A DNA stretch of 21,815 nucleotides, from the IMG/VR virus record IMGVR_UViG_3300010885_011287, positions 1 through 21,815 of that record. One strand, 5' to 3'. The stretch is from a virus. A program made the translations under genes and the position numbers. A model generated the notes under the pieces. It worked only from the letters and a program-made list of their open reading frames with translations. It was not told the DNA's origin and did not search any database. Positions 316 through 17,900 of the stretch are shown here, one piece after another. The first letter of the stretch is position 1, and each line of letters opens with the position of its first letter.

Positions 316-1200
316 GTTCAATCAGAAGATCCAAATCAAAGTGGAGCAGAATCTAATAGATTAGCATTAAGAAATACGCAGGCTGCACAGACAGAACAGG
401 TTACACAAAAGTTTAAAGCACAAGAAGACTGGCGGGTGCGTTTGAGTTTAGCACCCGGTGCCAATTATTTGTATAAAGTTGCTCAGGGTGCAGCTGGTAT
501 ACTTAATCCGTTACAGGCAACAGAAGGAGTTATCTTTCCTTATACTCCGGCAATCTCAGTCTCATATAATGCAGCATATGATGCTACAGAGGTAACACAT
601 AGTAATTATAAATTCTTCTCATACAAAAGTAGTAATGTAGATAACATAACAATAACGGCTGACTTTACTGCACAAGATACATCAGAAGCACAATATTTAT
701 TAGCAGTAATTCATTTTTTTAGATCAGTTACTAAAATGTTTTATGGTAAAGACCCGGGACCAGGTCCCGGGGTTCCTCCACCATTGTGCTATCTGTCAGG
801 TTTAGGTTCTTTTCAATTTGATTGGCATCCATTAGTAATTAATAATTTTACATACACATTACCAACTGATGTAGATTATATTCGTGCTATGGATACATCA
901 AGTAGACCGGGTATAAACGTTGGATCAGGTCAACCCAAAGGTAAACCGGGGGAAAACTTAATGGCTCAACGCATGTCCGGATCAAACATACAAACAGGTG
1001 CGTTGGCTGCTCCCCCAAAATTTAAAAATGATTCAGGCGTTAAAGATGCAGTAACATATGTGCCTACAAAAATGTCAATAACAATACAAGCACATCCTAT
1101 CATATCTAGAAACGATATCAGCAATAGTTTCAGTCTTAAAGAATATGCAACAGGTGCATTGCTAAGAGGATCACAACGTCAATCAGGAGGAATCTGGTAA
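1..1200 (+). CDS. 48: gp48-like baseplate tail-tube cap protein, 5'-truncated by the window edge
   Basis: The frame is open from base 1 to the TAA at 1198-1200 (399 codons visible), so the true start lies upstream. A GTG at 436 falls inside the conserved segment and is not a credible start. Visible residues 1-140 form an acidic, Pro/Asn-rich tail with imperfect repeats. The folded core starts near residue 142 (DWRVRLSLAPGANYLYK) and continues through GVIFPYTPAIS, THSNYKFFSY, LLAVIHFFRSVTKMFYG and LPTDVDYIRA. It ends with PTKMSITIQAHPIISRNDIS and LLRGSQRQSGGIW. This core matches my memory of a protein conserved in T4-like cyanophages and pelagiphages. The final beta strand and short tail resemble the end of T4 gp48, which caps the hub and nucleates the tail tube. 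gp54 is the main alternative because the two are related. The gene overlaps gp53 by one base and contains that gene's ribosome binding site. A Pro/Gly loop at residues 252-260 is encoded by a GC-rich palindrome. Confidence 0.78.
   Translation: MDEESAYPINTADPNNYVENFDPPPTDEFAGIDQQITNNTYIENFDPPATDEEVAAAIAASKENVENADVPATEVDELSAYPDNPVDQKDVVDELSAYPPNPVDQVQSEDPNQSGAESNRLALRNTQAAQTEQVTQKFKAQEDWRVRLSLAPGANYLYKVAQGAAGILNPLQATEGVIFPYTPAISVSYNAAYDATEVTHSNYKFFSYKSSNVDNITITADFTAQDTSEAQYLLAVIHFFRSVTKMFYGKDPGPGPGVPPPLCYLSGLGSFQFDWHPLVINNFTYTLPTDVDYIRAMDTSSRPGINVGSGQPKGKPGENLMAQRMSGSNIQTGALAAPPKFKNDSGVKDAVTYVPTKMSITIQAHPIISRNDISNSFSLKEYATGALLRGSQRQSGGIW
753..771. repeat. 19-base GC-rich interrupted palindrome inside the gp48-like gene
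   Basis: The sequence CCCGGGACCAGGTCCCGGG has perfect 9-base arms around a central A, and each arm contains its own CCCGGG. It sits in an AT-rich gene and encodes most of the PGPGPG loop (ccg gga cca ggt ccc ggg). Confidence 0.9.
1185..1190 (+). promoter_or_regulatory. Strong Shine-Dalgarno site for gp53
   Basis: AGGAGG lies inside the last codons of the gp48-like gene, nine bases before the gp53 ATG at 1200. It is the clearest ribosome binding site at an annotated start in the window. With the TAATG overlap it supports re-initiation or coupled translation of gp53. Confidence 0.8.
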
Positions 1201-1511
1201 TGGCTACAACTAATTTATACCCAGCAACAAGTCCGTACTATAATACAAACACGTACAATAATAATTTTTTAGACGTAATGATTAATCGTCCAATTCCAAT
1301 GCAACCATCAGACATATATTGGGAAATAACAACGGTCTACGAATACAGACCGGACTTACTTGCATATGATTTATACGGTGATAGTAGATTGTGGTGGGCA
1401 TTTGCACAACGAAATCCAAACAGATTAAAGGATCCTTATTTTGATTTTGTAACAGGGGTGGGTATATATCTTCCCAAATTAGATATGTTGAAACAAGTAT
1501 TAGGTATATAA
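1200..1511 (+). CDS. 53: gp53-like baseplate wedge protein
   Basis: This 103-residue protein is about half the length of T4 gp53. The family signature is clear: WEITTVYEYRPDLLAYDLYG (residues 41-60), then DSRLWWAFAQRNPN (61-74), then DPYFDFVTGVGIYLPK (78-93). The pattern of a Tyr/Arg-Pro-Asp/Leu helix, a Trp-Trp pair, a polar turn, DP..DF..G and a terminal strand belongs to the gp53 family with a LysM-like fold. In T4, gp53 joins neighbouring wedges around the hub during baseplate assembly. The start at 1200 is set by AGGAGG at 1185-1190 and the overlap with the upstream stop (TAATG). The first 35 residues are Asn/Tyr-rich and probably extended. The hub gene follows after three bases. Confidence 0.92.
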   Translation: MATTNLYPATSPYYNTNTYNNNFLDVMINRPIPMQPSDIYWEITTVYEYRPDLLAYDLYGDSRLWWAFAQRNPNRLKDPYFDFVTGVGIYLPKLDMLKQVLGI

Positions 1512-1514
1512 GAT

Positions 1515-4500
1515 ATGTACGATGGTCCTAAAGTAACAGTCAATGGATATACATTTGTAGAAACTGGCGGCGGCAATGTCATTATGTATGGGCCCGGCAT
1601 ACGCAGTGCTGGATATGCTGTTGGTCCAGCCAACAACCTGTCTCCTGCTGATTTTGCTAAATTAATAGATAATCCAAATAATGGTCCTGAGGCAACAGCA
1701 GCAATTACTGCGTTTTCTAATGACGCTCAATCTGTAGGTTCAATCTCGGCGGGTCTTAAAGCTGCTTCCGCGCCGTCAACTCCTAACTCAGATACACCAA
1801 AAGTAGAAACGACAGAACAGCAAGCGCCGACCCCGCAAACTGAACAACAAAACAAGGCATATATCGCCTCAGGTAGTGCAGATGGCGATAGGGGTGGCCC
1901 ACAAGGAGATCAAACTAATAATACAGTTACTGATACTCAATACAGTGAAACTGATCCAAGAGTAACTCCCGGCACTCCACCTCCTCCACCAGTTACACCC
2001 ACCACAGTTGCAGGTAAATCTGGAACAGATGCAGCTAAAAAATCTAATCCATCGCCTAGGTTACGAAAAAATCCGTTGGGTGATCTTAGTAGTTACACAT
2101 ACCAATTAACACTATATATGATAACCCCGGATGCATATAATGCATTTGTTATGTCTGGTAAAAAAAATATAAACGCTTTTCAAACTGCATTAGATTCCGC
2201 TAATCAAAGAATAGAAGAAGATAATGCAAATATAGCAACTAGCAACAGTTCACCAACCGCATCAATGGGTAGTCCACCTGCATCATCAACTCCAAAATCT
2301 ACCGTTACGGGTGGAGGAGTATATGTAGTTGCACAAAGTGGTGGTGTTGGGCCCGGTAAGAAAAGAGCACCTGGATTTGAGGAAGATTTTTTTATAGATG
2401 ATTTAAGAATGGTTAATAATGTTAATGGTAAAAGCACCTTGACCGCAGTAAATGTTACTAAAATAGATTTTACTATTACTGAACCCTATGGATTTTCTTT
2501 TTTATCAAAATTACAATATGCACATGAACAATTAAAAAAAGTATGTAAAGTAAAAAATTATCAAGATTCAAAAAACCCTACAAAACAATTTTTTATATTA
2601 GGTGTTAGATTTTTAGGATATGATAAAAATGGCAGCTTGGTAAATTCAAAAGATATACCGGGTGCAGAAGGAGATCCAACGGCAAATCAATTTGGATTGT
2701 TTGAAAGATATTTTGATATATATCTTACCAAAGTTTCGTTTAAAATGGATGGAAAAAGTGTAATATATAATATAACTGCTTCCTGCATTGCTGATTCGCC
2801 ATTTGGAACTAAAAGAGGGTTAGTAGAAAATGGAACCACTATTATAGGTAATACAGTATATGAAGCATTAAAGGGATCATCAACGTCCACAGCAATGCAA
2901 AACAATGCAAACCCTAATGCAGATAGAATGGGACAAGCAGCGGCAGGACAATACATGGGTAATAAAATAGGATTACTTACATCATTAAACGAAACACAAA
3001 AAAAGCAAGTTGGAAATGCCATTGAAATAGCAAATGAATGGGATGTAAAATTTATAGGTGGAGCAGAAGATTTAATAGCTAAGGCAAGTATAGTTAGTCC
3101 CAATGATTTGAATAAACACAGATGGGGTAGAAATCCTCAAGTAACGAATACTAAAGAATCAAATGATGCCAATGGCGCAAAACCCGGAACCCCTGATCCT
3201 AATTCCAGAACGATACAGATAATTGGAGGTACACCTATTCTTCAATGTATAGAAAATATAATTAAACAAAGTTCATATATGGAGAAGGCTTTAAAAACAG
3301 TTAATATAGCAAATGAAGAACTTAAACAAGGTGAAGGTGGAAAACAAACAATAAGATGGTTTAATCTTAGTGCAGAGGTTGAAGTATTGGGATGGGATTC
3401 AAAAGTTGGTGATTTTGCATATAGAACAACATATGTTATTCAACCATATGAGACCCCTACATTCCTTAGCACTTACGCAAATGGCCCTGCTCCATATTAT
3501 GGTCCGCATAAACGCTATCATTATATGTATACCGGACAGAATTCTGAGATTGTTAGTTTTCAACAACAGTTTGATAATACGTTTTTTACAGTTACATTAA
3601 ACCCAAATGGATCTCCAAGTTCTCAGGCTGGATCAGTAGATGTAGCAACCAAAGGTAATCAACCACAACCCGGTGATAAATCTGGTGGTGAAGCAGGTGG
3701 ACAGAGTGTTGATCCACAAAATTCATATATTACTAGTTTGCATGATCCATCGGCGCTTGCCAATGCTAAATTGACAATCATAGGGGATCCTGATTATCTA
3801 ATGCAAACCTCAACGTCAAGCCTAAATTCTCTATATAACAAATATAATGGCACAGATGGATTTACTATAAATCCAAATGGGGGGCAGGTGTTTATTGAAA
3901 TAGATTTTAATGAGCCGAAAGATTACAATATGGAGACTGGATTATTGAACATCAATAATAGAATTAAATTTTGGGAATATCCAGATTCAATAAAAGATCA
4001 AATTCAAGGCATTGCTTATATGGTTATAGATGTTACTAGTAGATTTAGTAAAGGTAAGTTCGAACAAGACTTAAATACTACAATAGCTACCTTCCCTGAA
4101 TTTGCTGCTAGTAAGATAGATGCCAAGGCGGCAGCAGCGGCGGAGCGTCCGGGCGGCGGTACAGGGAAACCGGGCGAAAGTGAAATGGCTCATAATGCAT
4201 CACTTCCGCCTAATAGAGATATAAGTAACGAATCAAATGTGGAAACAAATAGAAATGCTAGAAATAATAATACACTTTCAAATGCAGGTATTCAATCTCC
4301 TATAGACGAATCTAATGCTGAAACAAATAGGTTAAATAGACAAAGTGCAAGTATGCCAACAATGCCAGACGGCGTAGGAACATCGCCATTAACACCATAT
4401 GCTTCACAAGCATCATCAAACTTTTTAGACCCGGCACAAAATGCACAATTAGCATCGCTTAACTCTGTGGGAAGTATTAACAACGTAATGGATCCAAGTC

Positions 4501-4601
4501 AAAGACCTGTACCAAATCAAACTATAACCATTTCTACACCAACTGGACAGGTACAAGATGATGAAGCAGGAATTGCTACTAACCTTATTACTAACTGGTA
4601 A
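1515..4601 (+). CDS. Putative baseplate hub protein (gp27-type role), 1028 residues
   Basis: The N-terminal patch (1-55; GYTFVETGGGNVIMYGPGIR) is followed by a Pro/Thr/Gln-rich linker to about residue 188, including PPPPPVTPTT. The structured part begins with DLSSYTYQLTLYMITPDAYNA (from 190). It continues with KIDFTITEPYGFSFL (316-330), QFFILGVRFLGYD (358-370) and RYFDIYLTKVSFKMDGKSVIY (from 398). A second core has WDSKVGDFAYRTTYVIQPYETP (627-648) and YHYMYTGQNSEIVSFQQQF (668-686). A third has GQVFIEIDFNEP (from 790) and GKFEQDL. From about 870 the protein is Ala/Gly-rich, then Asn/Ser/Pro-rich. From memory, marine T4-like hub proteins share EPYG, QPYE/KPYE and YTG.N with this protein. Its position between gp53 and the gp5-like gene also fits a hub partner of the spike, but no single motif proves equivalence to gp27. 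The start at 1515 has no clear Shine-Dalgarno site, and it lies three bases after the gp53 stop, so coupling is likely. I am sure it is a virion gene and less sure of the exact role. Confidence 0.68.
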   Translation: MYDGPKVTVNGYTFVETGGGNVIMYGPGIRSAGYAVGPANNLSPADFAKLIDNPNNGPEATAAITAFSNDAQSVGSISAGLKAASAPSTPNSDTPKVETTEQQAPTPQTEQQNKAYIASGSADGDRGGPQGDQTNNTVTDTQYSETDPRVTPGTPPPPPVTPTTVAGKSGTDAAKKSNPSPRLRKNPLGDLSSYTYQLTLYMITPDAYNAFVMSGKKNINAFQTALDSANQRIEEDNANIATSNSSPTASMGSPPASSTPKSTVTGGGVYVVAQSGGVGPGKKRAPGFEEDFFIDDLRMVNNVNGKSTLTAVNVTKIDFTITEPYGFSFLSKLQYAHEQLKKVCKVKNYQDSKNPTKQFFILGVRFLGYDKNGSLVNSKDIPGAEGDPTANQFGLFERYFDIYLTKVSFKMDGKSVIYNITASCIADSPFGTKRGLVENGTTIIGNTVYEALKGSSTSTAMQNNANPNADRMGQAAAGQYMGNKIGLLTSLNETQKKQVGNAIEIANEWDVKFIGGAEDLIAKASIVSPNDLNKHRWGRNPQVTNTKESNDANGAKPGTPDPNSRTIQIIGGTPILQCIENIIKQSSYMEKALKTVNIANEELKQGEGGKQTIRWFNLSAEVEVLGWDSKVGDFAYRTTYVIQPYETPTFLSTYANGPAPYYGPHKRYHYMYTGQNSEIVSFQQQFDNTFFTVTLNPNGSPSSQAGSVDVATKGNQPQPGDKSGGEAGGQSVDPQNSYITSLHDPSALANAKLTIIGDPDYLMQTSTSSLNSLYNKYNGTDGFTINPNGGQVFIEIDFNEPKDYNMETGLLNINNRIKFWEYPDSIKDQIQGIAYMVIDVTSRFSKGKFEQDLNTTIATFPEFAASKIDAKAAAAAERPGGGTGKPGESEMAHNASLPPNRDISNESNVETNRNARNNNTLSNAGIQSPIDESNAETNRLNRQSASMPTMPDGVGTSPLTPYASQASSNFLDPAQNAQLASLNSVGSINNVMDPSQRPVPNQTITISTPTGQVQDDEAGIATNLITNW
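4230..4334 (+). repeat. Two copies of an ES-N-(A/V)-ETNR motif in the hub protein C-terminal tail
   Basis: ESNVETNRN (4230-4256, residues 906-914) and ESNAETNRL (4308-4334, residues 932-940) are 78 bases apart. A related motif, QSGAESNRL, lies in the tail of the gp48-like protein at 337-363. The surrounding sequence is Asn/Ser-rich and probably disordered. Confidence 0.8.
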
Positions 4602-4623
4602 AGATAATAACTAATTTAAATAT

Positions 4624-7600
4624 ATGGCAAATGATAATTTTAAACCAAAAGGCCAAGCTAAGAATTATAAAAACGATTCCGGTGGTGGTGTCGTTCGTAA
4701 TAGCCCAATCATTGGTGTTGTAAAAAACAACATCGACCCTAACCACAGCGGTAGAATTGATGTATATATTGCTGACTTTGGCGCTCGTGATCCTGATGAC
4801 AGCAAGAACTGGACAACTGTTGGTTATATGAGTCCATTTTTTGGTAGTACTAGACCAAGTGGACCTAACGGAGAAAAAGATTATGGAAGCTATTCACAAA
4901 ACCCAAGTTCATATGGCATGTGGTTTAGTCCACCTGATATCGGTAGTAAAGTAGTTTGTATATTCATCAACGGTGATGTAAACTATGGTTACTATATAGG
5001 TGGTATCATAGATCCTGAGTTACTACAAATGATTCCTGCCATTGGAACTAATACAAAAAATAGTCCGGTAATATTTAATGGTGCCGAAGCAAAAAGTTAT
5101 GGTGGCTCAACACAACTCCCTGTTACTAATCTAAATACAAATAATCCTAAAATTACAAATAGTGCAGGATTTTTAAATGCACCAAAACCAGTTCATAGCT
5201 ATTCAGCGTCTATATATTTCCAACAGGGATTAATCAGAGATCCAGTAAGAGGCCCTGTATCTAGTAGCGCATTACGTGAATCTCCGTCTAGAGTTGGATG
5301 GGGAGTTAGTACCCCGGGCAGACCTATATATCAAGGTGGTTATACTGATGAAACTATTGCTAAACAAAAGGGATCAGAAAATACTGACTCATTAAAAGTT
5401 GTTGCTCGACGGTCCGGTCATACTCTAGTAATGGATGACGGGGATATTACAGGCAAAGATCAATTTATTAGACTTAGAACATCACTGGGTCATCAAATAT
5501 TAATGAGTGATGATGGTCAAACTTTATTCATTGTTCATAGTAACGGACAAAGTTATATTGAATTGGGCAAAGAAGGTACAATTGATATGTACTCTACTAA
5601 TAGCGTAAACATTAGAACACAGGGTGATTTAAATTTACATGCTGATAACAATATCAATATTAATGCTAAAAAAGATTTAAACATTGCAGCCGATAATATT
5701 AAAATAAATTCAACCAATAATTATGATGTAAGAGTTGGCAAAAACTATAGTGGTTACACTATGGGAAAATATACTGTTAAGGTTAATGGTGCAATGAGTA
5801 TGGGTGCAGGCGGCGAAGGTTCTTATGCTAGTGGTGGTACAATGTATGTTAATGGCAGTATCATTAATCTGAATACTGGCTCTACATCAAACCCTCCAGC
5901 AGAAGTGCCATTGATTCCTCAAGTTGCACATACAGATACATTGGGTGATAAGACTAAGGGATATGCAGCAGCGCCGGGCTTATTGTTATCTATTGTTAGT
6001 CGTGCTCCCGCTCACTCACCGTGGGCAAGCGCAGGTCAAGGAGTCGATGTTAAAGTAACAACCAGTGCTAGTGCAGCATTGCCGGCCGCGCCTGCCCCGG
6101 CAGCAGCAGCAGCAAACAAAGCTGCATCAACAACCGCACCTGCTAATCCATCAAGTGCCTCAACGTTATCAACTGTACCGGGATCCGGCTCAGCAAGCAA
6201 TGCATTAACATCAGCAACTACAGCTGGATTGGTAGGATCAGCCGCAAGTCAAGCAGCAGGAACAGCAGCAGAAGCGGTAAACACTGGCACTAGTGTTATA
6301 ACTGATGCCGCAGGAAAAGTTAACGCAGCAGTTGGGACACTAGCTATGACACCTCAACAAATGGAAGCGGCTGTATTAAAACCGGGCGCAGCAGACCTGG
6401 TTACAGGATTAGTACAAAACGGGTCTAATGTAACAGCGGCTATGACACAGAATTTATTTACAGGCGCCCCGGGTGCAGAAAATTTAGCAGCATTCACTAA
6501 TAATCTTACGGCACAGGTTAGTGCTAAAGTTGACACTTTTAAACAAGCACAAACTGCCTTGACAAATGTTGGAGCAATAACAGGCAGCGAATCAGCTGGT
6601 TCTATTGCTGGTTTAGTATCAGCGGCATCATCGGTGGGTGTTAGTGCTACTACTGATTTTATTAAAAACGCCGCCGGCGGGTTGCCGGGGGTAGGAGACG
6701 CTACCAAACTAGTATCATCAGCAGGTGATGCAGTATCTAGCGCAATGGCTGCCGGAAACCTTTCAACAAATTTAATGACAAATGTAACCGGCGGGTTAAA
6801 TTCTATAACCACCGGAGTAGAAGGTATGTTAGGGAAAGTAATGGACGGTGCTGAAAGTTTAATTGATAGCGCAAAGGGCATAGCGGGTTCAGCATTCTCT
6901 GCAATTACAGGATCATTTAAAGATTTTGTCCCGGGGGTGCCTCAAAATTTGGCAGCTATCGTAGAAAAAAATGCATCCGCTATGGCAGCAGGCGCATCTG
7001 GGTTAGGTGCCATAGCTGACGCAGCTAAAGGAGTTACTAATTTAACCGGAACACTTGCCAGCGGCGGATCCTCTCTTATTGGAGATATAGGTAGTGCTGT
7101 TGCCGGCGCAGCAGGAACAGCAGTAGATGCTGTTACCGGTGCCGCCGGCGATGTAGGGAAGATTGTTACAGGCGCAGCCGGGATAAATGCAGCAGTTGAC
7201 GTTGCGGGAGGTATTAGTAACCTAACAAGTGGCGCAACTCGTGGACTAATTAGTGGAATAACTAGTGGAGCAGCTTCTATTGCCAGTGGTGTAAATAACA
7301 TACCCGGCGGACAAGATGCAATAGCAGCAGTAACAAATGCTAACTCTAAAGCTGCAAACATGCTTCCGGGCGTGGCAGGGCTTGGTGATATGGCAAAAAC
7401 ATTGTCAACTGCTGCCCAGAATGGTATAAATCCTGCTGATGCAGTAAATAGCAAACTTACATCATTAACCGCAGATGCCTCTTCGGCAGCCGGAGATTTA
7501 TTGGGCAAGATAGCCGCTGGCCCCGTAACACTAGCAGGCGCACTTGCAGCAGGAAAAGATAAACTATCATCTCTTGCTAGTGCAGGACTACCACCGGGAC

Positions 7601-8016
7601 TCGGGGCCCAATTAGCATCAAGTATTAATTCACTTAATACAGCAGGAGCCGATCCAATAAAAATGCCAAGTATTGGTTTAGGAACAGTAGATAGAAGTGA
7701 GTTAACTGCCTCAATTGGAGCAGTATTGGGGGATAAGAAAATATCAGCTCCGAACTTCTCCGGTGAAATTTCATCCGCTGCAACAGCGCAGTCCGACAAA
7801 CTTAGTTCAATATTGACTCAAGTGGAGACTCTACGTGCAAAACAAGATACTCAATATGAAATACTAGCAAAAGCCAATGAAGCAGTAAATAATGCACGAA
7901 ATAATTTACCTGAGGGTGATCCTGGAATAGAAACTGCTCGTATTGTAGCAGTTGCCGAATACAATAAATTATCAGATATATCTCAACAAATTAGAGATTT
8001 GGTAAGTCAAGCCTAA
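4624..8016 (+). CDS. 5: gp5-like baseplate hub spike protein with a long Ala/Gly-rich C-terminal extension
   Basis: This 1130-residue protein would form the central membrane-puncturing needle. Residues 26-131 are an OB-type domain: SPIIGVVKNNIDPNHSGRID, then YGMWFSPPDIGSKVVCIFIN and YGYYIGGIIDP. A linker and conserved patch follow (RGPVSSSALRES and GVSTPGRPI, about 209-234). Residues 260-420 have VgrG/gp5 needle character: RRSGHTLVMDDGD, IRLRTSLGHQILMSDD, and short polar repeats such as DLNLHADNNININAKKDLNI ending near INLNTG. There is no T4-lysozyme domain between OB domain and needle; the roughly 130 residues there are too few and show no catalytic motif. Residues 421 to about 1045 are Ala/Gly/Ser/Thr-rich. 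Residues 1046-1130 look helical and possibly coiled-coil (KLSSILTQVETLRAKQ). T4 gp5 is 575 residues, so this protein is about twice as long. The start at 4624 lacks a clear Shine-Dalgarno site; the preceding 22 bases are almost all A/T. Confidence 0.88.
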   Translation: MANDNFKPKGQAKNYKNDSGGGVVRNSPIIGVVKNNIDPNHSGRIDVYIADFGARDPDDSKNWTTVGYMSPFFGSTRPSGPNGEKDYGSYSQNPSSYGMWFSPPDIGSKVVCIFINGDVNYGYYIGGIIDPELLQMIPAIGTNTKNSPVIFNGAEAKSYGGSTQLPVTNLNTNNPKITNSAGFLNAPKPVHSYSASIYFQQGLIRDPVRGPVSSSALRESPSRVGWGVSTPGRPIYQGGYTDETIAKQKGSENTDSLKVVARRSGHTLVMDDGDITGKDQFIRLRTSLGHQILMSDDGQTLFIVHSNGQSYIELGKEGTIDMYSTNSVNIRTQGDLNLHADNNININAKKDLNIAADNIKINSTNNYDVRVGKNYSGYTMGKYTVKVNGAMSMGAGGEGSYASGGTMYVNGSIINLNTGSTSNPPAEVPLIPQVAHTDTLGDKTKGYAAAPGLLLSIVSRAPAHSPWASAGQGVDVKVTTSASAALPAAPAPAAAAANKAASTTAPANPSSASTLSTVPGSGSASNALTSATTAGLVGSAASQAAGTAAEAVNTGTSVITDAAGKVNAAVGTLAMTPQQMEAAVLKPGAADLVTGLVQNGSNVTAAMTQNLFTGAPGAENLAAFTNNLTAQVSAKVDTFKQAQTALTNVGAITGSESAGSIAGLVSAASSVGVSATTDFIKNAAGGLPGVGDATKLVSSAGDAVSSAMAAGNLSTNLMTNVTGGLNSITTGVEGMLGKVMDGAESLIDSAKGIAGSAFSAITGSFKDFVPGVPQNLAAIVEKNASAMAAGASGLGAIADAAKGVTNLTGTLASGGSSLIGDIGSAVAGAAGTAVDAVTGAAGDVGKIVTGAAGINAAVDVAGGISNLTSGATRGLISGITSGAASIASGVNNIPGGQDAIAAVTNANSKAANMLPGVAGLGDMAKTLSTAAQNGINPADAVNSKLTSLTADASSAAGDLLGKIAAGPVTLAGALAAGKDKLSSLASAGLPPGLGAQLASSINSLNTAGADPIKMPSIGLGTVDRSELTASIGAVLGDKKISAPNFSGEISSAATAQSDKLSSILTQVETLRAKQDTQYEILAKANEAVNNARNNLPEGDPGIETARIVAVAEYNKLSDISQQIRDLVSQA
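5884..7758 (+). other. Ala/Gly-rich extension of the spike protein (residues about 421-1045)
   Basis: This segment follows the predicted needle and uses mostly Ala, Gly, Ser, Thr, Val, Leu and Ile with few charges. It has recurring short amphipathic stretches such as GLISGITSGAASIASGVNNI and LIGDIGSAVAGAAGTAVDAV, separated by PG-containing turns (LPGVGD, VPGVPQ, IPGGQD, LPGVAG). It is visibly more GC-rich than its neighbours because of GCN, GGN and CCGGG codons. The composition resembles tape-measure or membrane-interacting helical repeats more than an enzyme. The frame is intact, so it is a real coding segment rather than a broken gene. Confidence 0.75.
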
Positions 8017-8035: not shown

Positions 8036-8485
8036 ATGCCAGCATATATCGGTTATAGTTCAGTAAATGGAAATAGACCTAGGTCCACTAATCTTCCTTT
8101 TGGTACAGGAGGGGGAGTGGGGTCAATGGTCAACCCCGTTATTATTGGGAATAAATTTCGCTCAGTAGACACTGCCATAGTGGTACAAGACTTTATAAAT
8201 GCATTGAATATTCAAAAGGGACAAAAAGTTGGTCAACCAGGTTACGGCACTACTCTTTGGACCTTTGTTTTTGAACCAAATACCCCGGATACACAATTTC
8301 AAATTGAAAATGAAATACGTAGAATTGCCAATCTAGACCCTAGGATGATATTAAATACTGTAAATTCTTACCCTCAAGAAAACGGAATTTTGCTCGAATT
8401 AGAGATGGCTATTGCCCCTTTTAATAACGCATTTGATTTAAGCGTATTCTTCAATAACGCAACAAATCAAGCAGTTATACAATAA
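8036..8485 (+). CDS. 25: gp25-like baseplate wedge protein
   Basis: This 149-residue protein belongs to the GPW/gp25 family; T4 gp25 is 132 residues. The domain spans about residues 42-149: VDTAIVVQDFINALNIQKGQ, then QPGYGTTLWTFVFEPNTPD, then FQIENEIRRIANLDPRMILN, and a final strand pair (GILLELEMAI). The family hallmarks are an ALNI..G-type helix end followed by P.YGT.LW, and a helix ending in DPR. gp25 binds gp6 and forms the inner wedge contact that triggers sheath polymerisation. It lies directly before gp6 here, whereas T4 gene 25 is distant from gene 6. The start at 8036 has no Shine-Dalgarno site. An in-frame ATG at 8126 (Met31) has strong GGAGG/GGGAG sites at 8108-8117. I keep 8036 because the early IGYSS segment resembles the N-terminus of marine gp25 proteins as I remember them. 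Confidence 0.92.
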   Translation: MPAYIGYSSVNGNRPRSTNLPFGTGGGVGSMVNPVIIGNKFRSVDTAIVVQDFINALNIQKGQKVGQPGYGTTLWTFVFEPNTPDTQFQIENEIRRIANLDPRMILNTVNSYPQENGILLELEMAIAPFNNAFDLSVFFNNATNQAVIQ

Positions 8486-8497
8486 CCCTAAAAAACC

Positions 8498-8537
8498 AAG
8501 ATTCTCAGGTATGATAAATACTTAAAAGAGAATACTT
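8498..8537 (+). other. Weak inverted repeat covering the gp6 ribosome binding site
   Basis: AAGATTCTC (8498-8506) can pair with GAGAATACTT (8528-8537) through nine pairs with one bulged A, around a 21-base loop. The right arm includes part of the AAGAG ribosome binding site (8526-8530), and the loop carries GATAAATA. The stem is AT-rich and of modest stability. There is no T-tract, so it is not a typical terminator. Confidence 0.35.
8513..8520 (+). promoter_or_regulatory. Candidate phage late promoter (GATAAATA) upstream of gp6
   Basis: GATAAATA matches the NATAAATA form of T4-like late promoters. It lies in the longest intergenic gap of the window (8486-8537), and 17 bases separate it from the gp6 ATG. 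A transcript starting a few bases downstream would have a very short leader that barely includes AAGAG at 8526-8530. Confidence 0.35.
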
Positions 8538-11500
8538 ATGGCTACAAGTTCAAGACAATCAGCATTATTCGGGGTAAATGACTGGAAAGCCATTTATCAA
8601 ACCTTTCAACAGGCCGACTTCAGAAGTTATGATTATGAAACACTACGCAAGACTTTTATAGATTACTTGCGTATATACTATCCTGAAACTTTTAACGACT
8701 ATATTGAAAGTTCAGAATTCATTGCCTTGCTTGATGTTATATCATTTATGGGACAAGGTCTTGCCTTCCGTAATGATTTAAATGCCCGTGAAAACTTTAT
8801 GGATACTGCTGAACGTAGAGATTCAGTTATCAAGTTAGCTAATTTAGTAAGTTACACACCTAAGCGTAATTTAGAGTCACAGGGTTATTTGAAAGTTACT
8901 AGTATTCAAACTACACAAAATATCACAGACTTAAATGGATTTAATTTAAGTAATACTCCGATATTATGGAATGACCCTGCAAATTCATATTGGTTGGAAC
9001 AATATAATACCATTATTAATGCTGCATTAGTTAACACACAAAGAGTGGGTGTTCCTGGCAATTCGGCACAAATTTTAGGTGTTAAGACAGATGAATATAC
9101 TATACAAATCCCTGCAGGTAGTTTACCTGTAATTCCGTTTGCATCAAATGTTAATGGAATGAACATGAATTTTGAATTGTGTAGTGTAACCACTGTGGGA
9201 GAAGATTATGTTTATGAATTACCACCTGCGCCTACAAACAGATTCAATATGTTATATCGTAATGATAAATTGGGATATGGTAGTCCAAATACAGGATTTT
9301 TCTTTTATTTTAAACAAGGATCATTGACAAACTTTGATTTTGTTCTACAAAATCAAATCTCCAACCAAGTAATTGACATTGATATTCAAGGTATCAACAA
9401 TACTGATACTTGGTTATATCAAGTAAGTCAAACAAATGGTTTGTTTGGGTTATGGCAAAAGGTAGAAAACGTATACGCAAATGCTTATCTACAAACTGAA
9501 TCTAGTGCTAAGAAAATATTCTCTGTTGGTAGCAGGTTTAATGATCAAGTAAGTTATGTTTTTGGTGATGGTGTATTTAGTGAAATTCCAGTTGGAAACT
9601 TTAGAGCATATGTTCGTTCTGGTAATGCATTAACATACACTATTGATCCAACACAAATGCAAGGTATTAGTGTTAGTATTAATTATGTAAGTAGAGTTGG
9701 TCGCATAGAAACTTTAACACTTCAGTTGGCATTACAAGTACCTGTCTCAAACGCACAGGTTCGTGAATCATTGGCTAATATTAAACAACGTGCTCCAAGC
9801 CGATACTATACTCAAAATCGTATGGTTAATGGTGAAGATTATAATAACTTTCCATACACGTTGTATAGTTCAATTATTAAATCAAAAGCAATTAATCGCA
9901 GTAGTGTTGGTATAAGCAAAAATTTAGATTTACTAGATCCAACTGGAAAATATTCTAGTACAAATAGTTTTGCCAATGACGGCGGCGTATATTTGAATAC
10001 TACTGAGGGTAACGCTTTGTTAGTAGTTAATAGTACCAGTGATATTATTACTTTTTTAACAGGTACCTTAACTTCTATATTACAAGATAATCGTTCTTTA
10101 CAATACTATCTACAAAATTATACTAGATATAATATTAATGCTGCATCAGGTGATGGTACTACTTATTGGCAAACTAAAACAGTTAACGCTAATAGCATGA
10201 CCGGATATTTCTACAATTTTGTCAACGGCGGAGAAAATCCTGTACCAGTTGGAACATATTCAACATACAACACAAAATATATAACCAAAGGTGCAATGTT
10301 AAAATTTACAGCACCATCAGGATATTATTTTGATGTTAACAATAGATTAGTAAACGGTGTAGCTAGTCCATCTGATGCTACTTATGTTTGGACTACTGTA
10401 TTAAATGTAATTGGTGATGGTTATAATAATGGCGCAGGCGGATTTGCAAATGGCACAGGCCCAATAACATTAAATGCTTATATACCAACTGGTGCAGTAT
10501 TATCTGTAGTAATACCGTCGTTTAGTAATTCATTACCTAACACAGTAATTAATGAATGCTTGACTCGTATTGAATTACAACAAGATTTTTCATTGGTCTT
10601 TAATAATTCATTAACTATTGCTCAAACCCGTTGGAGCGTTGAAGCATATAATGCTTCTAACTATTTTGTAAATTTTGTTAGTACCGGTTATAATAGATAT
10701 ACCGTCACATATCGTTCATTGATTTATTATTTTGGTAGTGTAGCAGATACTAGATTTACTTTTGAATTAGGTAAATTGGTTTATGATCCATTTACAGGAA
10801 AAATTCTACAAGATTATGTAAATGTATTGGCTACAAATACACAACCAACTTCCAACTACCCATTAAACAAAGCTATTTCTGCTAGCATAATTGGACAAAC
10901 TGTTCAATCTAATGGATATATAAATGACTTTGAAGTTGAGGTTGCTAGTATCGATACAAATGATAGAACTATTGTGCAGAATCCAGATTTCTTTAATGAA
11001 ATCACTGGCTATATTACTGGAAATACTAATATTGGTATATATGCATTTTTTGAAGAAGTTCAGGATGCTATTAATTTAACTAGTTATCAATTAATACCCT
11101 CAACTGATGTAGTATATCAATATCCAACTAAAACTCAAATTGAAGTAGTTAAGTATGAATATCCAGAAGGACAATTGTTCTATGCATACAATGACAATGT
11201 TTTTTACATTACTGTACAAGATCCTACAATTCTTACTCCATTTTATACTTTAGTAGCACAACCACAATACAGTATGAAACCCGGACGTCAAGGATTGCAA
11301 TTTCAATATCGTCATAACAGTAATAATACAACACGTATTGATCCTGCAACAACAAACATTATTGATTTATACGTAGTCACCCAGGCATATTATACTCAAT
11401 ATCAAAATTGGATACAAGACAGCACTGGCACTGTTCCTATGCCAACTAGACCGACTATAAATGAATTGAGTCAAAATTATCCTAGAATTCAAGATTATAA

Positions 11501-11909
11501 AATGTTAAGTGATAGTGCTATATTAAACAGCGTTATATTTAAACCTTTGTTTGGGCCTAAAGCAGCGGCTGCATTAAGAGGAACAATCAAAGTTATTAAA
11601 AATTCTAACACTAATGCAAGCGATAGTGAAATACGTAGTGCTGTACTAGCATCAATGGATAATTATTTTAACATTAACAATTGGAATTTTGGTGACACCT
11701 TCTATTTTAGTGAATTGAGTGCTTATATTCATAATCAGATAGGAGAATACGTTAGTTCTTGCGTATTGGTACCAAATGATCCTACAATGGCATTTGGTGA
11801 TTTGTATGAAATTAAATGTTTACCATATGAAATATTTGTAAATGCTGCAACAGCAAATGACGTAATTGTTATTGCCGCACTTACACCCGCCGAATTACAG
11901 ATAGCATAA
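8538..11909 (+). CDS. 6: gp6-like baseplate wedge protein, enlarged (1123 residues)
   Basis: The N-terminus is a clear gp6 signature: YETLRKTFIDYLRIYYPETF, then NDYIESSEFIALLDVISFMG, QGLAFRNDLNARENFMDTAE and VSYTPKRNLESQGYLKV. gp6 forms the continuous ring of six dimers that holds the wedges together around the hub and changes shape on contraction. The C-terminal part (about residues 1025-1095) has the expected dimerisation region: SAVLASMDNYFNINNWNFGD, FYFSELSAYIHNQIGEYVSS and CVLVPNDPTMAFGDLYEIKC. T4 gp6 is 660 residues, so this protein carries several hundred more. The extra material appears to lie in the middle, for example a Gly/Asn/Thr-rich beta segment at about residues 535-660 followed by QTRWSVEAYNASNYFVNF. 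The ribosome site AAGAG ends seven bases before ATG 8538. gp25 lies just upstream, and the giant gp7-position gene starts 29 bases after the stop, matching the T4 order 6-7. Confidence 0.93.
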   Translation: MATSSRQSALFGVNDWKAIYQTFQQADFRSYDYETLRKTFIDYLRIYYPETFNDYIESSEFIALLDVISFMGQGLAFRNDLNARENFMDTAERRDSVIKLANLVSYTPKRNLESQGYLKVTSIQTTQNITDLNGFNLSNTPILWNDPANSYWLEQYNTIINAALVNTQRVGVPGNSAQILGVKTDEYTIQIPAGSLPVIPFASNVNGMNMNFELCSVTTVGEDYVYELPPAPTNRFNMLYRNDKLGYGSPNTGFFFYFKQGSLTNFDFVLQNQISNQVIDIDIQGINNTDTWLYQVSQTNGLFGLWQKVENVYANAYLQTESSAKKIFSVGSRFNDQVSYVFGDGVFSEIPVGNFRAYVRSGNALTYTIDPTQMQGISVSINYVSRVGRIETLTLQLALQVPVSNAQVRESLANIKQRAPSRYYTQNRMVNGEDYNNFPYTLYSSIIKSKAINRSSVGISKNLDLLDPTGKYSSTNSFANDGGVYLNTTEGNALLVVNSTSDIITFLTGTLTSILQDNRSLQYYLQNYTRYNINAASGDGTTYWQTKTVNANSMTGYFYNFVNGGENPVPVGTYSTYNTKYITKGAMLKFTAPSGYYFDVNNRLVNGVASPSDATYVWTTVLNVIGDGYNNGAGGFANGTGPITLNAYIPTGAVLSVVIPSFSNSLPNTVINECLTRIELQQDFSLVFNNSLTIAQTRWSVEAYNASNYFVNFVSTGYNRYTVTYRSLIYYFGSVADTRFTFELGKLVYDPFTGKILQDYVNVLATNTQPTSNYPLNKAISASIIGQTVQSNGYINDFEVEVASIDTNDRTIVQNPDFFNEITGYITGNTNIGIYAFFEEVQDAINLTSYQLIPSTDVVYQYPTKTQIEVVKYEYPEGQLFYAYNDNVFYITVQDPTILTPFYTLVAQPQYSMKPGRQGLQFQYRHNSNNTTRIDPATTNIIDLYVVTQAYYTQYQNWIQDSTGTVPMPTRPTINELSQNYPRIQDYKMLSDSAILNSVIFKPLFGPKAAAALRGTIKVIKNSNTNASDSEIRSAVLASMDNYFNINNWNFGDTFYFSELSAYIHNQIGEYVSSCVLVPNDPTMAFGDLYEIKCLPYEIFVNAATANDVIVIAALTPAELQIA

Positions 11910-11938: not shown

Positions 11939-14900
11939 ATGGCAACAAGAATTAGAACATTAAATTTCTTACCAGAGGTATTTAAAACACCAACCAATAG
12001 TCAATTTTTACAGGCTACACTAGACCAGTTGGTAGCTGAACCCAATACTAAAAAGATAGAGGGTTATGTTGGTAGTAAATTTGGGTATGGGATTAACGCT
12101 AATGATTATTATGTTACTGAACCAACAAAAATCAGAACAGACTACCAATTAGATCCGGGTGTTGCTTTTTTAAAAGAAAATGATACTACCGCTACAGATT
12201 TTATTAGTTATCCGGGCATAATTGATTCGCTAAAATTAGAAGGTGCATTAACAGATAACAATAACAGATTATTCAATAGTGAATTTTATTCATGGGATTC
12301 ATTCACCAATTTAGATAAAATAATTAACTTCAACCAATACTATTGGTTACCAACTGGACCTGAGCGTGTAGTTGTTGCGACTGATATTGTATATAATGCA
12401 GCATCATATGTAGTTCAAAGTTTGCCAAATGAATATTTGATATCTTCTGAAACACTTACCACTCCTAGTTCTAATCCATCATTAACCTTAATAAGGGGAG
12501 GTACATATACATTTACCGTCAATCAAAACACTCAATTTTGGATTCAAGGCGAACCCGGTGTCACTGGATACAGCCCAACTCAACATAACGTACAGACTCG
12601 TGATGTATATGGAGTCACCAATAACGGGGCTAAAAACGGTGTAGTAACTTTCACTGTACCACAAAAAGATGCACTTAATGAATATAATTTCCCGGTTGGC
12701 CCTACTGTGGGTGTTGTATCTACTTTGCCGTTTAGTCAAGTTAACGGAGCATTAGTAAATGATATTGGTGGGATTGACGGAGTAACTGCATTAAACGGAT
12801 TAACCGTGATGTTTTATAACACCGGCGAACCCGACGAATTGGGGTATGTACAAAACTTTTTTAGTCAAACTACATATGATACAAATGATAATAATATTGT
12901 AGCCCCATTAACTATTACTGCTACCCGAACAGCAGCGTCTACAAATATTACAGTTGGTGGAAATCCCGCAACTTACTACAATGTAGTAACGTGTGCGTCA
13001 ACCGCCGGACTTGTTGAAGGACAAACTATAACATTTGACGGCACTGCATTTGGGGGCTTGACTGCATATTCAGAGTCAGGCTATATAGGTTCAGTACCAG
13101 TTGGCCCTTGCATTTACACAATCACCGGCAGTTTGGTTAATGCCGGCACATTTGTTGTTGGACACCAATATACAATTGTTTCTGTCGGTACTACAAATTG
13201 GACAGCCATTGGTGCTCTTAATTCAGAACCTGGCACAATTTTTGTAGCTACAGGTATTGGTTCAGGAACAGGCACTGCATCAACGTCAGCAATACCTAGT
13301 GCTACACAATTTACAATAGCAATACCCGGTTCATCTAATGCAGTGGGAGGAATTCCTCCATTGCAATTAACTGCTGCAACTGGTACAATGACCGGGAATA
13401 TAAATCAAGGTTTATATGAAGAAGGGGTGTATACTACAGTAAATCAAAATTTTTATACTATAAAACTATTGGGTGATCAATCTAATCCACAAATTCAATT
13501 AACTCTAGCTGATGTTATGCCTAATAATCAAAGAATAACCCCATTGTTTGGGGCTGAATTCTCAGATAGAGGTTTCTATAGAAACGCAACTGGAACTATA
13601 GCTTTAATACCTTATAATAGTGCTATCTTAGATAGATTGTATTACCAGGATGGTACTAACTCAAATAAAGTAGGCATATTAAAAATTGTAGATAGTAACG
13701 TTACTAATACATTAAACATATTAACACAAATTTTAGGTAAGAAAAATTATACAGCGCCAAACGGGGTTGTATTTACTAATGGGTTAAAAGTTTTATTTCA
13801 AGGCAATATATATCCAGAAAGTTACAACAACGTAGAATATTATGTCGAAGGGGTCGGTACTGCTATTGAATTAATACCAGTAACAACTTTAGTTACTCCG
13901 GGATTATTTTCTGAAGGCACATATATTCCATATGATACATTGGCGTATGATGTGGGTAATTATGATTCAAGTTTAAACATTCCAGTTGAACAAGATTATA
14001 TTACCATTGCTAGAAATGCAATTAACAAAAATGCATGGTCAAGAAGTAACCGCTGGTTTCATATTGACGTAATTACCGCAACTGCGGAATACAATAATAC
14101 TCCAGATCTAGTTACACAATTAGCTACTTTGAATAACAAAGCAAAGCGACCTATTATAGAGTTTTATCCAAACTTAAGATTATTTGATTCAGGTGTATAT
14201 GGCAAGGCTCCAATTGATTTTATGGATACCCGCACTACTGATGCATTTAGTCAAGTAGCAGGACAGAAAAATTATTATCCCGATGTTGCAGGTTACACAA
14301 CTTATAATGCAACTATAGACCCAGTTACTGGCCCAATTACTACTAGAACTGCAACGGCAACCACTGCAATAACAAATCAAATTACATTAAGTAGTACCGC
14401 CGGGCTGCACGTTAATGATACTATAGTGTTTGCCGGAATTCCGTTTGGTGGAATACAAGTTACTGTTGATCCGGTTACCACTTACTACATTACTAGTATT
14501 TTTGGCAACAATATTACAATATCAACGGAAAAACAAGGAACTGATCTTCCACTAACAACTGATAGTGGTACAATGACTACTATCATTAATTCATATACCA
14601 CAATAATTACAATTCCTACGGAAGATGTATTTGGTTTGTTTGAAGTTGGACAATATATACTTGATTCTACAAATTTATTACCTAGTATAACTTATATTAC
14701 AGACGTAACTACATTGGGGTCAGATACAATTATAACAATTTCTTGGGATAAAACAAATGCAACTATTGCAGCAACTTCAGTGGCTTCAGTAGTTACGGCT
14801 GATACTCCTTTAACAAATTATTCATTATTTGAAGGTTCAAGAGTAGTTTTTGCAAAAGACACTAATTTAGAAGTTAGAAACAAAATATATGTTTCACATT

Positions 14901-17900
14901 TTTCTACTATTTCCGGTTCCTCTGCCCCAGTTATAACGCTTACTGAAGCAGAAGATGGATTGATATTGGCAGATGAACAAACTGCTGTTTATAGAGGATA
15001 TACTAATAGAGGCAAAGACTTTTATTTTGATGGACTTTATTGGGATCTTTATTTTAACGGTGTTTATTGGACAGCCCGTGGTCAACAAAAAACACAAATT
15101 AATCAAGCCCCTAAATTTGATGTGTTTGATAATAACAATATAAGTTTTGGTAATTCTGAATATTATATTGGTACTTCATTTACAGGCTGCACATTGTTTG
15201 CATTTGGAATTGGCACGGGCTCTAATGATTCTGTATTAGGATTCCCGCTACGCTACAGCTCCGTAGATAATGTAGGTGATATCAGTTTTGATGTTACATT
15301 AAATAGTCAAACTTTTAATTACGTATCAGGAACTGCACCAAAAACACAAAATGTTAACACTGGTTATGTTTTTAATTACGTTGATAGAATTTCATATGTG
15401 AGAGAATTGGGTTGGCAAACAGCAGTATCACCCAGTATACAATATCAAATTTTTGAATTTGATTGGACTATTTTAAATCCAACTAATGATTTTGTATGTG
15501 ATATTCCTGCATCATATAGCACGCCAACTAGTTGGCCTTTAGTTCAAGTTTATATTAATAATACTTACTTGCCGTCTACATTATATACAGTAGTTACAAC
15601 TGATACCACAACTACAATATCTATTCCGGATGTTTCAGCAATTGATACTGTTGTTCAAATATTGGTATTAAGTGATGAAGTGAGTGCAACTGCTTACTAT
15701 CAAACACCTATCAATTTAAATAATAATCCATTGAATGCAGACATTACCTCAGCCAACATAGGTGACATTCGTGGGCAATATCAAAGTATTTTCTTTAACA
15801 ATCCTAATACCTTAGGAGAAGTTTTTGGTCCTAATAACTATCGTGATTTGGGTAACTTAGTACCCTGGGGAAATAGAATTATTCAGAATAGTGCTTCATT
15901 AGTATTGCCTGGCACGTTTTTGCGTAAACAAAATCACAATTTGTTTAATTCAATTTTATATAACAGCAGACAATATATTGGTTTCAAAAATTTACTAATA
16001 GACACCATTAATAATACTGATTATAGTTATTATATGACTGCTTCTGCAATGCTTGATGACGCACTAGACAAAATGAACGCAGCACATACAGACGGAGATT
16101 CATTCTTCTGGAGTGACATGTTGCCGCAAAAAGCACCATATATATCTAACACCTATAGTTTTGCAAATTCATTAGATATTAGTATATACCCATTAAGCAA
16201 AATTTATGATTACGCGGCTGCAAATTATTATGGAGTATTAGTATATTTGATACGTAATGGAGTACAATCACAATTAATAAAAGGTGTTGATTATACAATA
16301 AGTGCAGATGCACCTTCATTAACTGTAACTAAAGATTTGCTACAAAATGATGAGATTATCATTAATGAATATAATCAAACATACGGAAGTTTTGCACCAA
16401 ACACTCCTACTAAATTGGGATTATATCCTGCAACTATTCCAAATGTAGTATTGGATACAGCTTATTTTATTCCCACTTATTTTATAGTGGGACATGATGG
16501 ATCATATAATAAATTATACGGAGATTATGATCCTATAACAGGTACACTAAGTGATTTTAAAGATCAAGTATTATTTGAATATGAAACTCGTGTTTATAAT
16601 AATTTAAAATTAAGCAACACTATTCCTGTAGAGGCATATGAAATATTGCCAGGTTTCTTTAGAAATACCGGATATTCTTATGCTGAATTTTTACAAATAT
16701 ATAGTGAGTCATTTTTAAACTGGGTTGGGCAGAACAGAGTTAATTATAAAACACAATTATATTCATCAAGCAACAAATACAGTTATAACTATGCCAACAG
16801 TGGCAATAGAATAAACAATGAACCAATTGAACAAGGTTATTTTAGAGGATTGTATCTATTCTATTATGATACAAGCACTCCAAATGTTACCCCATGGGAA
16901 ATGTTAGGTTATACTAATCAACCATCATGGTGGGAAACACGTTATGGACCTGCGCCATATACAAGTGATAACTTAGTGTTGTGGGGAGATTTGGCGGCAG
17001 GTGAAGATTGGGGAACAATTGACCCAATAACCGGCCGCGGGATAGTGTTACCTAAATATGTTCGTCCTGGGTTGTTAAATGTATTACCAGTAGATAGCAG
17101 CGGTAATTTAGTTTCTCCGTTTGTTTCAATTGTTGGTAACTATGATGAAAACCTGTTTAGAAACCAATGGCAAGTGGGAGATGTGGGTCCAACAGAGTTT
17201 AGCTATCGCAGAAGCAGTTCATGGCCATTTGATTTGATGCGTATACTAGCGTTAACTAAACCAGCAAAATTCTTTAACTTGGGTGTAGATGTAGACAACT
17301 ACAAATATAATTTTGAATTTGATCAATATTTAGTAAATGATAGAAGCCACTTGGTGATTAGTGATATTCCAATTTATGGTAGTGGTACTCCTGCAACTAG
17401 TTATATCAATTGGATCGTAGACTTTGAGAAACAAGTTGGTATTGATGCTACAACAAACATAACTACATTATTAGATAACTTAGATGTTCGCTTAGTTTAT
17501 CGTTTGGCTGGATTTAGTGATAAAAACTTATTAAAATTCTATGTTGAAAAGAGTTCAGCAAATAGTAATAATAGTTCATTGTTAATTCCTGACGAAAGCT
17601 ATAGTGTATTATTATACGATAATCAAGCATTTGATAGAATTGTATACACTGGTGTAATTGTTCAACTTGCAACAATAGATAATGATCCCCTTAAAGGGAC
17701 ATGTTTTAAAGTATTTGGCAATTCACAAACAAATGCATATTTTAAAACGTTAACCCCTAGTTACGGCGGTCAGACTGAAAAAATTATTGTTGAAGGTGCA
17801 AGCGTAACAGTCGCTAGCACATATACCAATAATGTTCAAATAGTTCCATATGGTACAACATTTTACACTGTGCAAGAAGTTTCACAGTTCCTAGCTAGCT

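Follow-up and report, generated by a model that had tools for sequence, protein, structure and literature searches.

The 21.8-kb IMG/VR virus record IMGVR_UViG_3300010885_011287 (called the window below; the flanking genome lies beyond the record) encodes a gp5-type central spike protein of 1130 amino acids (aa), in which about 700 residues follow the needle. This segment is a conserved, modular and previously unnamed payload of a known spike type. A lysozyme origin of its first module (aa ~521-685) is well supported. The module is very probably a dead lysozyme, the loss of activity being read from the alignment because the column of the catalytic Glu holds Gly in 71 of 71 relatives. In the best explanation that we can offer, and which we regard as probable, the post-needle region would consist of this dead lysozyme and a helical module, which together make a collar beside the needle, and cutting would have passed to a tape-measure-like protein. 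The parts of the spike gene are given below with their basis, including AlphaFold2 (AF2) models and a profile, A5, that is defined further on.

4624..8016, + strand: gp5-type central spike gene, 1130 aa, with OB fold, needle, neck, degenerate lysozyme domain and helical tail
4699..5013, + strand: OB-fold region, aa ~26-130 (Pfam match; AF2 strands)
5461..5883, + strand: needle repeats, aa ~280-420 (conservation; PHROG 13211 and 9992 matches)
5899..6048, + strand: conserved neck that follows the needle, aa 426-475 (divergent pairs 71% identical)
6049..6183, + strand: Ala/Pro-rich linker, aa 476-520 (AF2 low confidence; near-fixed length across relatives)
6184..6678, + strand: degenerate lysozyme-superfamily domain, aa ~521-685 (AF2, hhalign, A5 profile)
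6286..6288, + strand: codon of Gly555, at the place assigned to the catalytic Glu (Gly in 71/71 sequences)
6676..6696, + strand: fission point, a stop codon and then a new ATG in six relatives
6694..7548, + strand: Ala/Gly-rich amphipathic helical segment, aa ~691-975 (AF2 low confidence)
7549..7773, + strand: conserved 75-aa block, aa 976-1050 (50% identity in divergent pairs; 74-78 aa in relatives)
7774..8013, + strand: C-terminal helical hairpin, aa ~1051-1130 (AF2 predicted local distance difference test, pLDDT, about 90)

The needle-type repeats end near aa 420, and therefore the segment starts at residue 421 (nt 5884), as given by a preliminary description made from the sequence alone. 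The extension of about 700 residues that it placed there is confirmed and is conserved, and its modular build, with a probable lysozyme fold in the first module, goes beyond what that description saw. Before this point, the OB domain has a Phage_base_V (PF04717) match at aa 96-128 that is just over the cut-off (E 4.6e-5). The needle repeats include the most conserved stretch of the spike, and AF2 monomer confidence is low there. The match to PHROG 13211 (a baseplate hub/lysozyme family) is confined to aa 12-409, and the matches of cultured phages to about aa 12-466. The neck motif 'RAPAHSPW' is the counterpart of the 'THEPW'-type motif found after the needle in related jumbo-phage spikes, a link to cultured phages that consists of a short motif only, with weak profile scores. 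A full-length AF2 model (45 sequences) was poor overall, with scores of 70-90 for aa ~520-685 and about 90 for aa 1050-1130; its best viral match among predicted viral structures was the uncultured gp5-type protein A0A6J5L6V6.

On modelling the domain only (aa 505-695, 71 sequences), AF2 gave a pLDDT of 87.9 and a predicted template modelling score (pTM) of 0.81. A Foldseek search of the PDB returned weak matches only, 5 of 11 being to the lysozyme superfamily (phi6 lysin, DslA three times and T4 lysozyme). Against BFVD, four proteins were matched with prob 0.98-1.00, namely a gp5/VgrG-type protein (again A0A6J5L6V6), the tail lysozyme of Atu_ph04 and two uncharacterised proteins. The match to the Atu_ph04 'baseplate hub + tail lysozyme' has TMq 0.45 and a root mean square deviation of 2.9 over 111 columns at prob 0.98. 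This protein, from an Agrobacterium phage of the Pootjesviridae, represents the closest recognised lysozyme-domain class, and its domain reads ...RESSGNYKAVNRFGFCGGYQFGGPALQDLGYARPG...WTGKNG...QD...AHLLGPGG..., the WTGK, QD and AHLLG blocks being shared with the window. It differs in that the catalytic motif RESSG...GYQ is intact, the domain precedes the needle and there is no Ala/Gly-rich tail.

A profile (A5) was made from 11 catalytic tail-lysozyme domains of the Atu_ph04 type. With hhalign, A5 matched the window family with probability 92.6 (P 4.6e-7, score 47.5), whereas 200 column shuffles scored no more than 15.6 and the reversed profile 13.1. When A5 was run over the window, the sole match was at 6403-6675 (E 4.9e-8), and over 14 relative contigs it found the gp5 tail domain in six (E 1.8e-5 to 2.4e-8) with no other match. 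PHROG 27932, the Atu_ph04 tail-lysozyme family, matches 24 of the 71 members. Pfam holds no family for this catalytic class; in NCBIfam its ESxGxY...YQ region has a sub-threshold match to the aggregation-promoting-factor C-terminal domain, which we take to be transglycosylase-like. No chain was found by the A5 profile in the PDB, and no close relative of the Atu_ph04 domain in an IMG/VR scan. The preliminary description had stated that the spike lacks a lysozyme domain; this holds in so far as no recognisable working lysozyme is present, and fails in that a lysozyme-superfamily domain without the catalytic Glu occupies aa ~521-685.

The register that sets Gly555 opposite the catalytic Glu is anchored on the G-x-Y-Q motif (Gly571), the K-P-G block and the AF2 helix and hairpin, the helix ending at 554. 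No conserved acid is present in residues 530-580, the nearest being D529 (57/71) and E581 (60/71), and no conserved residue in the window alignments corresponds to the A5-invariant E19, Q37 and H121. The two conserved acids are what would favour the view that the domain still hydrolyses peptidoglycan by means of a rebuilt active site, e.g. around E581. We consider this very unlikely, as the invariant Glu, Gln and His of A5 are without conserved counterparts, E581 aligns with the D of 'ALQDLGY' instead of the catalytic Glu, and the active-site lobe is Ala-rich and the most diverged part.

The segment is also widely conserved. An IMG/VR scan found 292 stretches that encode spike relatives (290 on scanning with the tail alone), and the ~700 post-needle residues are kept in more than 60 distinct full-length relatives. 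A quick tree built from the N-terminal part places the window family in a single fully supported clade; deep joins in this tree are unsure owing to long branches. A tblastn search of cultured phages with the whole tail gave no match, and no relative was found in the host genomes searched. Between divergent relative pairs, for which 0.08-0.14 is expected from composition, the identity is 0.49 for residues 476-520, 0.48 for 521-690, 0.45 for 691-775 and 0.50 for 976-1050; it is 0.28 for 776-975, where 35% is unaligned, and 0.22 for 1051-1130. Therefore, the segment is not a chance or open-frame artefact, as the 45-50% identity in 476-775 and 976-1050 is to be set against 9-14% expected there. 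Segment lengths are near-constant across relatives except for 776-975, which spans 132-372 aa.

In six relatives (L043, L054, L055, L065, L075 and L077) the gene is split, with a stop near aa 685-690 and the rest present as a separate gene. The fission is clean, consisting of a stop, a Shine-Dalgarno-like sequence and an ATG, and the tree requires four switches from one form to the other (fused or split), three of them forced by starred branches. It follows that the residues after ~690 must be capable of functioning as a polypeptide of their own. In L065 the separate tail gene (8045-9838) carries many tandem repeats of the 11-residue unit GGLAGAAGGAL, a length of three helix turns.

Of the helical segment, 691-775 is conserved and 776-975 is length-variable. 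Residues 421-1045 contain 10.1% Asp, Glu, Lys and Arg versus 17.6% for residues 1-420, with Ala/Gly/Ser/Thr at 21/13/11/9%, and the amphipathic helical periodicity (3.5-3.67 residues) over 476-975 is 2-4 times that of shuffled sequences, a signal that is not membrane-specific. Both agree with the low-charge, Ala/Gly/Ser/Thr-rich segment with amphipathic stretches that was noted earlier, and the short helical end noted with it is the confident C-terminal hairpin, which surrounds a conserved LPxGDP turn (P1096, G1098 and D1099 invariant). Scanning of the whole tail against Pfam and PHROG yielded compositional matches only. Matches of the tail profiles in the PDB were discarded as chance helical matches. 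A resemblance by eye between the XacN1 and RAS14 spike ends and aa 976-1050 is supported by neither hmmsearch nor hhalign.

Membrane activity of the tail, as proposed in the preliminary description, is unsupported. In the version considered here, amphipathic Ala/Gly-rich helices would enter the inner membrane after puncture and aid DNA passage, perhaps as a channel. The strong helical periodicity with low charge, the glycine-zipper-like repeats of the kind seen in L065, and the weak matches, compositional in kind, that a few members have to tape-measure PHROGs would suit it. No 19-residue window of the tail exceeds 1.6 on the Kyte-Doolittle scale (maximum 1.42), so the protein is without a transmembrane-grade segment, and values of 1.6-1.8 are reached, marginally, in a few relatives only. 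There is no profile match to pore-forming families, and the first quarter of the segment is a soluble globular domain. The preliminary description had taken such a non-membrane fold as speaking against a membrane role, and this applies to 521-685, about a quarter of the segment. The needle end should moreover be occupied by a PAAR tip in relatives. PAAR matches over the family cut-off occur in 6 of the 14 relative contigs, including 5 of the 6 longest, in frames of about 91-112 aa. As relatives encode this tip, the tail is not the tip itself and does not replace it, contrary to the earlier description, which set the extra residues in the place of the needle tip. We therefore regard a membrane-active tail as improbable. 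One relative contig (G002, 524,565 bases) has two PAAR genes far apart, at loci L154 and L157 (frames of 91 and 111 aa).

It may also be asked if the segment is a disordered spacer of variable length without a function of its own, for which the low AF2 confidence over 690-1049, the Ala/Gly/Ser composition and the 132-372 aa range of 776-975 could be cited. This reading is already refuted for 521-685, which folds confidently, and for 1051-1130; the identities given above are far from those expected from composition, and helical periodicity persists even in the variable part. As a whole it is thus hardly credible. Taken by parts, 521-685 can no longer be the disordered spacer mentioned earlier, 691-775 and 976-1050 are unlikely to be one, and 776-975 may be one.

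A closer competitor is a trimeric stalk or collar only, in which 691-1130 would be a trimeric helical bundle serving to stabilise or orient the spike in the baseplate, and the lysozyme fold a folding or docking unit that binds no sugar. This fits with the 3.5-residue periodicity of the C-terminal hairpin, the conserved block of fixed length at 976-1050 and the separate-gene form in six relatives, which implies non-covalent assembly. Against this, the 48% identity of 521-690 in divergent pairs suggests more than packing, without proving binding. We hold this reading to be possible, though not the one to be favoured.

The explanation that we prefer, a collar of dead lysozyme and helices with cutting done elsewhere, takes its last step from the tape-measure-like proteins. 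None of the GH24, M23 and SLT families is present in the 14 relative contigs. Eight examined relatives have a large tape-measure-like protein (942-1507 aa) encoded between the portal and gp26-like hub genes, and the strong M15_4 matches, along with two of those to GH19, fall in this protein. With Pfam matches over the cut-off, the eight comprise two with M15_4, two with GH19 and one with VanY; of the remaining proteins one has a VanY match just below the cut-off, and two have a C-terminus related to the M15 region. Shorter GH19 frames elsewhere in the relatives look like endolysins. In RaK2 the annotation of the protein in the same place (ORF088) notes similarity to a tape measure protein, and the orthologues in PBECO4, RaK2 and XaC1 have 709-734 aa (family-profile E 1.5e-11 to 2.6e-13). 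No hydrolase module was found in these three orthologues, the Pfam scan being of that of PBECO4 only. The spikes of the same three phages carry a lysozyme, by Pfam (GH24) for PBECO4 and by annotation or sequence for RaK2 and XaC1. This small contrast, of eight versus three, supports a hand-over of cutting to the tape-measure-like protein.

The steps would be as follows. The extra 700 residues would correspond to the payload region situated after the needle in jumbo-phage spikes, filled in the lineage of the window by a lysozyme fold minus the catalytic glutamate (aa ~521-685) and by a helical module (aa ~691-1130), optionally as a separate polypeptide. At the neck the three chains would diverge from the needle with its PAAR cap and pack at its side or back along it, by analogy with T4, where the lysozyme domains are found next to the needle and act once it is lost (PMC3004832). 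Here the dead domain and the helices may form a structural collar, possibly gripping peptidoglycan. The task of cutting peptidoglycan would have been taken over by the tape-measure-like protein through its C-terminal peptidase or GH19 module; this protein would follow the spike into the periplasm. A more ambitious version, in which a large uncultured jumbo-phage lineage made of its wall-cutting spike enzyme a device that grips or guides without cutting, joined it to a long helical module at work in the envelope, and handed cutting to the tape measure, is offered tentatively, and we would sooner expect it to be wrong in part.

Several points weigh against the preferred explanation. The N-terminal lobe, which includes the catalytic position, is aligned by hhalign without confidence, and so the Glu-to-Gly555 register is taken from motif spacing and predicted structure; the conserved acids E581 and D529 may leave room for a rebuilt active site. 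AF2 gives no confident model for 691-1049. No PAAR gene is present in the 21.8-kb window, and the tape-measure gene of this phage, like any PAAR gene that it has, would be outside the record. Finally, the Paride spike carries no enzyme and its syntenic protein no recognised hydrolase, and therefore the hand-over is not universal. As for the preliminary interpretation overall, the conserved extension, the helical end and the lack of a recognisable working lysozyme stand, the membrane role is unsupported, and the tail does not replace the tip.

Related jumbo-phage spikes show what the place after the needle can hold. A THEPW-type motif is followed either by a variable payload, with active hydrolases of several families, or by nothing. 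By Pfam, the payload is GH24 in PBECO4 and in L245, L248, L256, L261, L287 and L314, SLT in L241 and L257, and SLT_3 in XacN1 and RAS14. The payload of L263 resembles a SleB-type hydrolase (sub-threshold Pfam), those of L265, L293 and L299 resemble GH19 by eye only, and the spikes of Paride and SCTP-2 end at the motif. PBECO4, RaK2, XaC1 and Vibrio 2.275 agree with the window in gene order and in carrying a payload behind the needle, and differ in that theirs is a GH24-type lysozyme, by Pfam for PBECO4 and by annotation or sequence for the others.

Dead spike lysozymes may have arisen more than once. In the L311 and L320-L324 spikes, a lysozyme fold of the same class as the window domain follows a HEPW motif, with Glu replaced by Leu or by Ala/Ser; unlike the window spike they have no Ala/Gly-rich helical tail, and they belong to a separate gp5 clade. 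A second case is possibly given by L282/L283, which together with L277/L278 have Ala-rich helical tails after the needle and form a gp5 clade apart from the window family. Behind the helical tail L282 has a truncated GH24, of which only positions 45-111 of the 125 of the model remain. Like the L311 and L320-L324 spikes, L277 and L282 are thus without an intact enzyme.

Lysozymes carried on the spike are a textbook feature of the T4-type puncturing device. The window resembles T4 gp5 in the OB fold and needle, the gp53/gp25/gp6 neighbours, a lysozyme-superfamily domain on the spike and, in relatives, a PAAR-type tip gene. In T4 gp5 the lysozyme domain lies between the OB fold and the beta-helix, with catalytic Glu184/Asp193/Thr199 (PMC3004832), whereas that of the window follows the needle, is of another lysozyme class and lacks the Glu, and a helical tail of ~440 aa is added. 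The contractile spike of the Clostridioides difficile phage phiCD508 is likewise without wall-cutting domains; it has a compact needle without a beta-helix, and its structural cassette was found to be without enzymes (PMC11948020). The window spike differs by keeping a dead enzyme fold, and its relatives by a hydrolase on the tape-measure-like protein. A peptidoglycan hydrolase motif is reported for the tape measure protein of mycobacteriophage TM4 (PMC1796659), a precedent for placing the function there, as in the relatives of the window; TM4 is a siphophage with no contractile spike of the window type. No description of such a spike or of a phage-tail pseudo-lysozyme was found in the literature searched.

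The findings identify a domain that is recognised by neither Pfam nor NCBIfam and occurs in hundreds of environmental phage sequences. They point to a widespread lineage in which the lysozyme fold was kept, the catalytic residue lost and a helical module added, and in which the tape-measure-like protein bears a hydrolase. This raises a testable question on the roles of a spike enzyme besides cutting, and on which of the two, spike or tape measure, acts on the wall first.

The remaining genes of the window make up an operon of T4-like baseplate genes, in the order virion protein, gp53-like wedge, hub-position protein, spike, gp25, gp6 and giant virion protein. The neighbourhood expected of a gp5/VgrG-type spike (gp53, hub, spike, gp25, gp6) is thus present, and the order of gp27-position gene, spike and gp25 is the same in cultured jumbo phages.

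1200..1511, + strand: gp53-like baseplate wedge gene (Pfam PF11246, E 2.1e-5; PHROG 7145)
1515..4601, + strand: large virion protein in the gp27 (hub) position (by gene position; PHROG 11190 only)
8036..8485, + strand: gp25 baseplate wedge gene (Pfam PF04965, E 1.8e-7)
8538..11909, + strand: gp6-like baseplate wedge gene (PHROG 10646, E 8e-256)

The product of 1515..4601 has no Pfam match, and no enzyme domain was found in it by the Pfam and PHROG scans. The frame of the giant virion protein (11939-21814, at least 3292 aa) runs past the window end.

Some other spikes were also observed to have uncommon arrangements. In L321 the spike frame (3702-5369) ends at 556 aa and a degenerate lysozyme lies in an overlapping frame (5282-6421), which may be a frameshift, an assembly error or another fission. 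The spikes of L261 (4941-8429) and L258 (4989-8633) have ~1160-1215 aa and apparently two GH24-type lysozymes each, which flank further needle-type repeats; in L261 two stretches are matched by Pfam. In the Atu_ph07 spike (L083, 7932-10529) a lysozyme-like domain is followed by a trypsin-like serine peptidase (PF13365, E 6e-17). The Phosso spike (L082, 7944-11078) likewise has a peptidase that is trypsin-like by sequence after a lysozyme-like domain, together with a linker of ~200 residues that is almost pure Gly/Ser.

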